Assembly: GCF_000058485.1 (NCBI RefSeq)
Contig: NC_008278.1
Coordinates: 62,001 to 126,000 of the forward strand
Reading direction: 5' to 3'
Source of the DNA: Frankia alni ACN14a
GTDB lineage: Bacteria > Actinomycetota > Actinomycetes > Frankiales > Frankiaceae
Length of the DNA: 64,000 nucleotides
Part shown: in pieces, positions 26,458 through 29,689 of the stretch
Layout: each line of letters opens with the position of its first letter
How positions within the stretch are numbered: position 1 is the first letter of the stretch
The notes under the pieces: generated by a model
Told to the model about the DNA's origin: nothing
What the model saw: the letters and a program-made list of their open reading frames with translations, nothing else
Databases searched by the model: none
Translations under genes and position numbers: made by a program

Positions 26458-26595
26458 AAGACCGGGAGCCTACGGGCATCGCCTCACGTAGCCAGGCAAC
26501 CGACCGCGTGTCACACCAGACTAGGTCAGGAGACTGGAGGTCTGGTCGGGTGCGACGTGTGCTGATCGACCGGAACTCGGCCAGCGGGGAGGCGC

Positions 26596-27921
26596 TCACG
26601 CCGCCTGTCCGGCCGAGGACCCGTGGCCTGGCCCAGGGGACGCGGGGGAGTGGAAGAAGCGCACCGGGTCAGGCTCGATGCTGACCGGTGGCGCCTCCTG
26701 CATGACCGTTCCGTCCGGATGGAAGACCAGCAGCTCGCCGGTCGGTCGCCGCTTGAGAGTCAGGCTCCTGTCGTGCACCAGCCGGTGATGGAGTGAACAG
26801 AGCAGAACCAGATTCGCGGGGTCCGTCAACCCGTTCTCGACTCCCCATTCCTGCAAGTGATGGATCTGCAACCATTGGGTGTGTCGGCAGCCGGGGTAAC
26901 GGCAGACGCCCTTATCCCGCGCGTAGACTGCCCTCCGCAGCTTGGTGGACGGGCTCCGCCGGGTGCGGCCGAGTGCGAGCGGATTTCCCTTCGGGTCGGT
27001 CAGAAACGCGCGGAGAAGACTGTTGCAGGACAGCCGGCGAACGACGCTTGGCGGGAGCGTGCCACCGCCCTCGATCTCGCAGGTCCGACCGCTCAACTCA
27101 TCCTTCTCTGCTCTCGGGGCACGGTCGTCTTGACGATCTTGGTCCCCGCCGATCAGAGTGTCGACATCGACATGCACGTTGACGGTGAAGGAATTCGGAT
27201 CGGTCAGCCCCGGCGCGCCGTGGGTAAGGAAGGATTCCGCGACTCCCGCGAGCGCGTCGACTCGCAGGGCCCGTGACACCGCCTTCTCCTGGCCGCCGTC
27301 CGGGAAATCGGTCGTACTCCTTCCGTCGTCACGGGGTCTGGCCGACTGGTCGAGAGTCGACGCGGCCATCGCGAGGGCCTTGGCGACCACCGCGCCACGC
27401 TCCGCATCGAGATGAGCGATCAGGAAGAAAGTGCCATCCTCGTTCCAGTGCCAGGAACAGCGCACGGAGTCCTTTTTGTCGCCGCTTTTCTCACGGTCGT
27501 TCCGGCTGTCCGCCTTGATCTTCAATTGGAGGGAGACGAGTCGCTCGAGTTCGCGGGCTGAGCATCGCGCCGCGTCGTGAGCCCACCCGCCCTCCGTCTC
27601 CGGGGTTGCGACGCGTGTGATGGCTCGAACCTTGGAGTAGGAGATTTCGCCTCGGGCGAAGGTTGCACTGATCTGTGGGAGCGTCTGGAGTGCGCGAGCG
27701 ACGCGCAGATACTCGTAGCTTGCGCGCAGGCCGATCCCGCAGCGCCAGGCCAGCCAGTGCGCACAGGTCGGCAGCCCGGTTGCGGACCAGCCCTTCCGGC
27801 GGTCGAAGGCGGCGAGCAAGGTCAGCCAGCGGCAGGTTGCGGCCGAGATGCGACCAGCCCAGCCGCAGACTTCCACCTCAAGGTCAGGGAGGGGGACGAC
27901 GTCGGGGTCTCGATCGAACAT
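26596..27921 (-). CDS. DUF222-HNH endonuclease-like protein (13E12 repeat family type)
   Basis: 441-residue protein. DUF222 helical domain occupies residues 15-300; the HNH domain follows (RRAVYARDKGVCRYPGCRHT, LQIHHLQEWG, NLVLLCSLHHRLVHD), with zinc ligands and catalytic His intact. It resembles the mycobacterial 13E12 family, some of whose members are known to be DNA-damage induced. ATG 27921 is chosen over the open frame to 28182 because it matches family starts (MFDRDP), sits in a perfect LexA box and follows a well-spaced promoter. Base composition is less GC-rich than neighbours, suggesting mobility. Confidence 0.85.
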   Translation of the reverse strand: MFDRDPDVVPLPDLEVEVCGWAGRISAATCRWLTLLAAFDRRKGWSATGLPTCAHWLAWRCGIGLRASYEYLRVARALQTLPQISATFARGEISYSKVRAITRVATPETEGGWAHDAARCSARELERLVSLQLKIKADSRNDREKSGDKKDSVRCSWHWNEDGTFFLIAHLDAERGAVVAKALAMAASTLDQSARPRDDGRSTTDFPDGGQEKAVSRALRVDALAGVAESFLTHGAPGLTDPNSFTVNVHVDVDTLIGGDQDRQDDRAPRAEKDELSGRTCEIEGGGTLPPSVVRRLSCNSLLRAFLTDPKGNPLALGRTRRSPSTKLRRAVYARDKGVCRYPGCRHTQWLQIHHLQEWGVENGLTDPANLVLLCSLHHRLVHDRSLTLKRRPTGELLVFHPDGTVMQEAPPVSIEPDPVRFFHSPASPGPGHGSSAGQAA

Positions 27922-27957
27922 GGGTTCGATTGTGCGTCGAGTCGGCGCCCTCGTCAA
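27914..27957 (-). promoter_or_regulatory. SOS promoter with perfect LexA box over the HNH gene start
   Basis: On the minus strand, -35 TTGACG (27957-27952) and -10 CACAAT (27934-27929) are 17 bp apart. TCGAACATGGGTTCGA (27914-27929) is an exact match to the actinobacterial SOS box TCGAAC-N4-GTTCGA and contains the ATG (27921-27919). The transcript is therefore probably leaderless and LexA-repressed. Confidence 0.8.
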
Positions 27958-28156
27958 GCGGCACTGACGCCATTCTCGCCGAGGAGACCGTCTGTCATGG
28001 CAGTCGGTCGCGGTGGCCCCTTCTGGGGCTGCGGCGGCCACCGTCCATGCCTCTCTGCTCCGCGGTGCGTATTTGCCTTGTGGTCGCCGGCGCGTCCACA
28101 ACAGCGCCCTGGGCGGCCAGGCGGTTGTGGGCTGATCTGCTGGTGGGTGCCGGGTC

Positions 28157-28200
28157 TTGACGGAGGTGTGCCGGTGCTGCATAATCGATCATATGTTCGA
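28157..28200 (+). promoter_or_regulatory. Second SOS-type promoter, opposite strand
   Basis: TTGACG (28157-28162), 17 bp, CATAAT (28180-28185), then TCGATCATATGTTCGA (28185-28200), one mismatch from the LexA box, with an ATG at 28193. Distances from -35 to -10, to the box and to the ATG are identical to those of the HNH gene promoter. It reads rightward into the 3' end of the response regulator gene. Confidence 0.65.
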
Positions 28201-28235
28201 ATCCAGAAAGGGGGGTGAGTCGGCGACCAGGCCGG
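28193..28235 (+). other. Possible remnant 5' end of a second 13E12-type gene
   Basis: The ATG inside the second LexA-like box opens MFESRKGG, echoing the MFDRDP start of the HNH gene. The frame continues to 28405, but from about 28236 it is antisense to the response regulator and shows no recognisable domain. It could be a truncated gene start or a short antisense transcript. Confidence 0.35.
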
Positions 28236-28880
28236 TCAGCTCCGCAGATAGGCGAGGACGGCCAGGACCCGGCGATGGTCCTTCGTGGTCGGCTCTAGTC
28301 CGAGTTTCGAGAAGACGTTTGATATGTGTTTCTCGACGGCGCCACTGCTCACGACCAGGTGGGAGGCGATTGCGGTGTTCGACCGGCCTTCCGCCATCAG
28401 AGTGAGGACCTCTCGTTCCCGAGGTGTCAACGCGGACATGGGGTCGTTGCGACGATTTCGAACGAGGAGCTGTGCCACCACTTCCGGATCCATGACGGTG
28501 CCGCCTGCAGCGACCCGACGTACTGCGTCAACGAATTCACGCACATCGGCGACGCGGTCCTTCAATAGATAGCCGACGGCACCGGCACCGTCAGCGAGAA
28601 GCTCCGCCGCGTACTGTTTTTCGACGTACTGGCTCAGGACGAGAATCGGTGATCCGGTGACTTCGGAACGGGCCCTGATCGCCGCTCGCAGTCCTTCGTC
28701 GCGGTGGGACGGAGGCATCCGGACGTCCACGACGGAGACGTCGGGCTGGTGCGTCACCACCGCATCGACCAGGCCGGGCCCGTCTCCGACCGTGGCGACC
28801 ACCTCGCAACCGGCGTCGGTGAGAAGGCGGCGCAACCCTTCACGGAGCAGTACCGAATCCTCGGCGATGACCACCCGCAC
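28236..28880 (-). CDS. NarL/LuxR-family response regulator (orphan)
   Basis: 214-residue two-component regulator. The receiver has the acidic pocket (AEDS), phospho-acceptor Asp52 in VVDVRMPP and Lys in YLLKDR. The C-terminal LuxR HTH is LTPREREVLTLMAEGRSNTAIASHLVVSSGAVEKHISNVFSKLG in outline. No histidine kinase is adjacent. Its neighbour across a short divergent gap is the copper gene cluster, which makes a role there possible but unproven. It resembles the regulator at 52.3 kb. Confidence 0.88.
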   Translation of the reverse strand: MRVVIAEDSVLLREGLRRLLTDAGCEVVATVGDGPGLVDAVVTHQPDVSVVDVRMPPSHRDEGLRAAIRARSEVTGSPILVLSQYVEKQYAAELLADGAGAVGYLLKDRVADVREFVDAVRRVAAGGTVMDPEVVAQLLVRNRRNDPMSALTPREREVLTLMAEGRSNTAIASHLVVSSGAVEKHISNVFSKLGLEPTTKDHRRVLAVLAYLRS

Positions 28881-29029
28881 GATGCATCAGCCCTTCTTCG
28901 GGGTCCTGGTTCCGGCGTCGGAGTACGCCGACGCTACCCGTGGACAGGTGTTGACCGTCCGAGGTTGACGGATGTCGGCGGCGGTGCCGGCAGCACAACT
29001 GACGGCTTGACGACGCTGCGGGAGGGGGT

Positions 29030-29689
29030 GTGGCGGTGAGCGGGCCCGACATGGCAGTCTTGGTCCCTGTGAGCACAGGGTGGTCGGCGAGTGGAGGGAC
29101 GGCTCGCCTTGGACGAGCTGCCACCTTCGCGTCGTCCTCTGTGTGTCTGGCGTGGGCGGCGCACGTGGCCGGTGGTGCCCAGCGGTCGCCGGCCACAACG
29201 ATGATCATCGCCTTTCTTCTTCTCACCAGGATCGCCTACGGCCTCGGCGGCCGGGAGCGACGCCTTCCGATGCTCGTGGCAGGCATCGCGGGGACCCAGG
29301 TTCTGCTCCACATCACCTTCGCTCTCGCGCACCCGCACGCCCACCGAGCGGGCGGCTACCCGATCGAGATGCGGATGGTGTTCGCGCACGGTCTGGCGGC
29401 GGTGTGTGTCGCCGTGCTGCTGCGCCGCGCGGAGCGTGTGCTGTGGTCGGCATCCGGGCTCCGTCCCCACGCGGTCCTGTTCCGCCTCTTCCGGCCAGTG
29501 GCAGATCGGGCCGTGCCCTCGATTCCGCCAGTACCACGCGTCGATGTCCGACGACGGGCTCCCCGCCCCCACACCCGGCCGCTCGGTCCATCTGCCCGCA
29601 GACGTGGTCCACCGCCGGGACAGCCGGAGTTCGGTCGGACGGGACGGTGTGCTGTGGACTGCTCACCGCCGCTTTTTGCCATGGCCTGA
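29030..29689 (+). CDS. Multi-pass membrane protein of the copper cluster
   Basis: 219-residue protein with four or five hydrophobic segments in the first 140 residues, including RLPMLVAGIAGTQVLLHITF followed by ALAHPHAHRAGGYPIEMRMVFAHG, a His/Met-rich loop suitable for copper binding. The C-terminal 75 residues are basic and Pro/Arg-rich. GTG 29030 and GTG 29036 both follow GGGAGGGG. It is first in a same-strand series with ycnI and copCD. The family is not firmly recognised. Confidence 0.65.
   Translation: MAVSGPDMAVLVPVSTGWSASGGTARLGRAATFASSSVCLAWAAHVAGGAQRSPATTMIIAFLLLTRIAYGLGGRERRLPMLVAGIAGTQVLLHITFALAHPHAHRAGGYPIEMRMVFAHGLAAVCVAVLLRRAERVLWSASGLRPHAVLFRLFRPVADRAVPSIPPVPRVDVRRRAPRPHTRPLGPSARRRGPPPGQPEFGRTGRCAVDCSPPLFAMA

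Follow-up and report, generated by a model that had tools for sequence, protein, structure and literature searches.

Which gene, if any, is served by the second of two LexA-type promoters that point apart beside a DUF222-HNH gene of Frankia alni ACN14a? One promoter (P1) reads into the DUF222-HNH gene; the other (P2) reads away from it. The initial annotation, made from the letters of the window (the whole 64,000-nucleotide stretch analyzed, positions 62001-126000 of one 7,497,934-bp contig), had taken P2 for a second damage-inducible start, of either a remnant 13E12-type gene or a short leaderless or antisense RNA.

The locus was compared across 13 Frankia genomes, in which Frankia torreyi CpI1, Frankia sp. 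AiPs1, and Frankia gtarii are each counted once; the named records of these three hold close orthologues of the HNH gene. The DNA search gave 7 of the 13 genomes, without G002, which was recovered by a protein search and a box search. One match each was found for LexA and RecA in the F. alni genome, with three SOS boxes preceding lexA and one preceding recA, each at one mismatch to TCGAACN4GTTCGA. The three at lexA (L187), two of which abut, precede the LexA domain match by ~290-360 bp.

P1 and the DUF222-HNH gene

26596-27921, minus strand: DUF222-HNH (13E12-type) protein gene, 441 aa, assigned by Pfam; ATG within SOS box 1
27914-27929, minus strand: SOS box 1, perfect TCGAACN4GTTCGA, spanning the HNH start codon
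27929-27957, minus strand: promoter P1, TTGACG (27957-27952), 17-bp spacer, CACAAT (27934-27929)

The protein carries DUF222 followed by HNH, the order of the 13E12/DUF222-HNH family. DUF222 scored over the Pfam cut-off (E 5.3e-22; 79 bits vs 24.4), and the HNH domain is weak, slightly below its cut-off (E 6.6e-4; 20.2 bits vs 21.4), with the HH...N...H residues legible in the sequence. No NCBIfam family fitted the 441-aa protein at E 1e-5, and a solved-structure search gave no match. Orthologues were found at 74-82% in five Frankia genomes, at 54% in G002, and as two pieces in G001. The G001 gene (L123, G001:C122) is apparently broken, its two matching pieces being accompanied by a 199-aa ORF from the start.

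Motif and promoter scans both confirmed that the HNH start codon lies within a perfect SOS box preceded by TTGACG-17-CACAAT, as the initial annotation had it. Judged by its sequence, P1 is best explained as a LexA-repressed promoter of the DUF222-HNH gene, with a probable leaderless start at ATG 27921 (-).

Such an arrangement is common. DUF222 gave 24 match rows in this genome (L022 and L023 share one reading frame), and 15 of these 24 loci carry a perfect or one-mismatch box in the 800 bp preceding the domain. A phylum-wide search beyond Frankia covered 149 genomes, 55 of them with a DUF222 match. Among 29 loci fetched from other genomes, 13 had a perfect or one-mismatch box in the 600 bp preceding the domain, compared with a mean of 0.04 and a maximum of 1 locus for 179 permuted motifs. 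In Mycobacterium tuberculosis, the available text of PMC4181829 gives the SOS box as TCGAAC(N)4GTTCGA, with an extended motif, MKWMTCGAAMRYWTGTTCGA, that contains WTGTTCGA, and that of PMC5005354 names Rv0515, Rv1702c, Rv3074, and Rv3776 as probable 13E12 members of the LexA regulon. Five putative HNH endonucleases, whose family is not named in the text available, respond to mitomycin C via RecA (PMC8151990). The mycobacterial precedent to which the annotation had appealed is thus right in outline as far as these sources extend (PMC4181829, PMC5005354), and the frequency of LexA-type boxes at DUF222 genes is consistent with it. Since such boxes are common, P1 is ordinary, and P2 is the new element.

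Two further arrangements were seen at DUF222 loci. In a second promoter class (own-genome loci such as L005-L009 and L024), the box lies further upstream, closer to the -35 element than to the start, and in several loci a TACCGTTGA-like stretch and then CATG come after it. Another locus (L067, G007:C110) has two tandem one-mismatch boxes at ~1250-1360, one of which, TCGATCATATGTTCGA, is identical to box 2 of the window.

P2 has the same geometry as P1

28157-28185, plus strand: promoter P2, TTGACG (28157-28162), 17-bp spacer, CATAAT (28180-28185)
28185-28200, plus strand: SOS box 2, with a single mismatch that falls in the left half-site

P1 (27957-27914, -) and P2 (28157-28200, +) both consist of TTGACG-17-CAYAAT with a 16-bp SOS box (TCGAACN4GTTCGA) within the promoter, laid across the -10 element and the start. 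The final T of the -10 element is the first base of the box in each. The ATGs, at 27921 (-) and 28193 (+), both stand 36 bp from where their own -35 element begins. The two -35 elements are ~200 bp apart. The claim of two promoters of one geometry pointing apart was therefore borne out, including the TTGACG-17-CATAAT, one-mismatch box, and equally spaced ATG on the opposite strand.

When two mismatches were allowed, the window contained 5 box matches vs 2.29 expected, and 10 of 100 shuffles reached 5, so the boxes alone are unimpressive at this threshold. When no more than one mismatch is tolerated, the 64 kb contain two sites of the true motif, 271 bp apart; only 1 of 179 other half-site permutations places two sites within 300 bp. 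A consensus promoter scan of 27800-29100 returned two sites, exactly P1 (-) and P2 (+), against a shuffle mean of 0.1. The composite TTGAC-N19-ANNATCGA-N6-GTTCG had 3 matches in the 7.5-Mb genome and 24 in the 13 Frankia genomes, whereas its reversed control had 0 in all 13. These 24 comprise 8 P1, 8 P2, 1 DUF222 paralogue (L113/L194, G005), and 7 members of a small-protein family.

The start string that the initial annotation had seen at both promoters, ATGTTCGA, is indeed present at P1 and P2. It is explained by the operator, because the right half-site GTTCGA after AT yields ATG-TTC-GA. The same string also begins DUF222 genes and the unrelated small-protein family elsewhere.

Promoter elements of P2 are conserved while spacer and leader drift

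Mean pairwise identity was calculated in an alignment of the eight genomes with the module. At P2, the -35 element (0.91), the -10 element (0.84), and the box (0.83) scored well above the spacer (0.46), the leader (0.43), and the intergenic DNA (0.47); the spacer is nevertheless 17 bp long in all eight. The corresponding values at P1 were 0.96 (-35), 0.72 (-10), 0.91 (box), and 0.57 (spacer). Taken as a 44-column block, P2 reached 0.70, whereas intergenic windows of 44 columns, sampled every 4 columns, had a mean of 0.47 and a maximum of 0.59. Conserved promoter elements and box beside a variable spacer and leader are what selection on a working promoter would produce, and this pattern is best explained by a second functional LexA-repressed promoter of the sigma-70 type. 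Box 1 is perfect in seven of the eight genomes (all but G002) and box 2 in none, so that of the two LexA sites the one at P2 may be the weaker, with earlier firing or more leakage.

One further intergenic stretch was conserved.

28051-28068: conserved mid-intergenic stretch holding CTGYTCCGMGGTGC, identity 0.72 vs 0.47 for intergenic DNA

It sits near the middle of the interval from P1 to P2, about 125-147 bp before either predicted start, and CTGYTCCGMGGTGC is exact at the same place in six of the eight genomes. Considered as a wider element, CTGYTCCGMGGTGC was rejected: it had 27 matches in the 13 genomes, 6 at the site and 21 elsewhere, and the latter are not clearly above the 12 of the reversed control.

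P2 is linked to the HNH gene

26481-28235: block of HNH gene, P1, intergenic DNA, and P2, absent from the five genomes without the HNH gene

P2 was present in all eight genomes that carry the HNH gene here and in none of the five that have the site without the gene, absence meaning no box with at most one mismatch and no composite match there. The latter five have ~56-134 bp in place of the block, and flank homology in them stops near 26475-26483 and restarts at 28228-28236. Because homology breaks at the block ends, the HNH gene, P1, intergenic DNA, and P2 appear to have been gained or lost as one block, and the best reading is that P2 is inherited together with the HNH gene. No target-site duplications were seen at the block ends by eye. 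A tree of the flanks (890 bases) requires at least two changes for the module, and 39% of bootstrap trees need one; it fits either a single gain with losses or more than one change.

P2 was also considered as a general part of DUF222 loci, and this was rejected: among L001-L024, a further perfect or one-mismatch box, or any composite match, was found at the window locus (L013) alone, within flanks of 1500 bases.

P2 faces the 3′ end of a response-regulator gene

28236-28880, minus strand: NarL/LuxR-type response-regulator (RR) gene, Pfam Response_reg and GerE

The RR gene, with orthologues at 90-98% in 11 other genomes, presents its 3′ end to P2 in antisense orientation. P2 is thus a promoter on the opposite strand aimed into a gene, the arrangement expected of a cis-antisense RNA. 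Its predicted start lies 42-44 nt past the RR stop in six of the seven genomes with an intact RR gene and 32 nt past it in G001. Of the products that the initial annotation had proposed, an antisense RNA reaching into the RR gene, still putative, is the best fit, given that the ORFs after P2 are not conserved, as detailed below. On removal of LexA by damage, P2 would fire toward the convergent RR gene, and the predicted noncoding RNA, starting ~42-44 nt beyond the RR stop codon, would be complementary to the 3′ end of the RR mRNA. The likely effect during SOS would be lower RR output and less RR read-through toward the HNH gene. We give roughly an even chance to P2 being a LexA-type promoter of a noncoding RNA that is antisense to the RR 3′ end and lowers RR under SOS. 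The wider proposal, that SOS derepression both activates the nuclease and, through an outward LexA promoter, silences a highly conserved neighboring RR, is put forward only tentatively.

Synonymous variation at the RR 3′ end was not reduced in the seven P2 genomes (0.305 for codons 196-210, with windows across the gene at 0.20-0.44). This lends an antisense RNA no support, although a fully complementary one needs no such constraint. A consensus fold of seven leaders (window row from 28194) gave hardly any sign of a covarying RNA structure, with two-sided change at 1 of 38 pairs. No T-tailed terminator was found on the plus strand between 27800 and 29100.

G002 counts against a purely RR-directed role: its RR gene is degraded to weak fragments and P2 has been kept, with two mismatches in box 2, unless the decay is recent. 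A box 2 with two mismatches occurs among the eight genomes only in G002 and in G001, where the HNH gene appears broken; two cases are no proof.

The main alternative to the antisense reading is an effect on the HNH side, in which divergent transcription from P2 or a second LexA dimer tunes P1, whether by supercoiling coupling, cooperative repression, or a roadblock or insulator against RR read-through. The persistence of P2 in G002 despite the degraded RR gene keeps this alternative in play, and the tracking of the HNH gene by P2 (8/8 vs 0/5) is in its favor. However, an operator alone would make the conserved -35, -10, and 17-bp spacing superfluous, and the box-to-box distance varies from 225 to 292 bp over the eight genomes with no fixed helical phase. 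We consider such a role rather unlikely, though it deserves consideration.

If the antisense RNA were much longer, an excludon-like arrangement could result, with P2 RNA running through the whole RR gene into divergent plus-strand ORFs at 29030 and 29744, the latter of which we take to be YcnI-like. The lack of a T-tailed plus-strand terminator up to 29100 would allow this, and the 29030 ORF was matched in 11 of 12 loci examined, G002 being the exception. However, many actinobacterial terminators lack U-tracts, the 29030 ORF is present also in the five genomes without P2, and nothing in the data speaks for so long a transcript. We regard this extension as improbable.

The ORF that starts at P2 is not conserved

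In all eight genomes, the DNA downstream of P2 is the RR gene (seven genomes) or weak RR fragments (G002). A tblastn search of 12 loci with the window HNH protein as the query found the P1-side gene only, so that in them no match to this protein follows P2. The remnant 13E12-type gene postulated behind P2 was therefore not supported, and the check proposed with it, a search of related genomes for a full gene downstream of P2, yielded no such gene and no conserved ORF. These results bear on the idea that P2 is the functionless vestige of a head-to-head pair whose second DUF222 gene was lost. The composite is common to DUF222 gene starts, as this idea would expect, but the promoter elements are conserved while spacer and leader drift, and no P2-side copy was found; a vestigial P2 thus has little probability. 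P2 may have originated by duplication of P1.

28193-28405, plus strand: 70-aa ORF after P2, not conserved and judged noncoding

The codon at the position of the P2 ATG is ATG in five of the eight genomes, ACG in two, and GTG in one. The ORFs that open with ATG are 70, 42, 68, 68, and 14 aa long, and the GTG opens one of 28 aa. The distance from the P2 start to the RR stop takes all three phases across the seven genomes with an intact RR gene. As a positive control, the seven-member small-protein family behind the same composite keeps its ATG in 7/7 and its protein body in 6/7. Because the coding cases of the composite show conservation and P2 shows none, P2 probably yields no protein. The translated leaderless product suggested earlier was not borne out, and a coding product after P2 was rejected on the unconserved start codon, frame, and ORF length. 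A leaderless microprotein (70 aa here) is accordingly highly improbable: ATG or GTG at most predicted starts and the 68-aa ORFs in two other genomes would suit it, but ACG in 2/8, the shifting phase relative to the RR stop, and ORF lengths scattered from 70 to 14 aa do not.

The small-protein family is possibly a new SOS small protein of Frankia. Its member in this genome is L207, from 1501 (G000:C1:3320035+), with orthologues L208, L192, L195, L210, L197, and L198. The proteins begin MFDLxGVRP..., are 113-140 aa long in six members and 41 aa in L192, lie behind a leaderless LexA-type composite promoter, and share the block LPPSVARVAxRxRLSAELLAAxLxVxGRSRATLDDMERADAxAD. In the one member scanned, no Pfam family exceeded its cut-off, and a weak Xre-like HTH was seen (E 0.013).

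Comparison with known systems

The LexA-regulated 13E12/HNH genes of M. tuberculosis are the same kind of gene with the same SOS box; the available text on them mentions no second outward promoter, whereas the Frankia locus has P2. SymE/SymR of Escherichia coli is a LexA-controlled locus with a cis-antisense RNA, as far as the text of PMC1891008 was available. There the antisense RNA, SymR, lies opposite the SOS gene, whereas the Frankia LexA-type promoter would drive an antisense RNA against the neighboring RR gene. At whiB2/fbiA of M. tuberculosis, a LexA site lies between divergently transcribed genes (available text of PMC4181829); that arrangement has one box and two coding genes, and the Frankia locus has two boxes, with one of its arms lacking a conserved ORF. 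The main text of a Streptomyces venezuelae LexA paper (PMC9380542), in the form available, contains neither "HNH" nor "antisense." In the literature searched, no LexA promoter in antisense orientation was described next to a DUF222 gene.

Significance of the outward promoter

A practical consequence is that a ATGTTCGA start at an SOS box may be a by-product of the operator and needs a conservation test before a gene is called. In actinobacteria, a LexA-type box is frequent at DUF222-HNH genes, whose function is not settled; one paper, in its available text, has proposed a role in mismatch repair (PMC4181829). P2 offers a concrete, testable case of putative damage-controlled antisense transcription, and it hints that DUF222-HNH genes may act on adjoining genes. 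If true, DNA damage would be linked to two-component signaling through antisense transcription, and a nuclease gene would possess a damage-triggered antisense arm.
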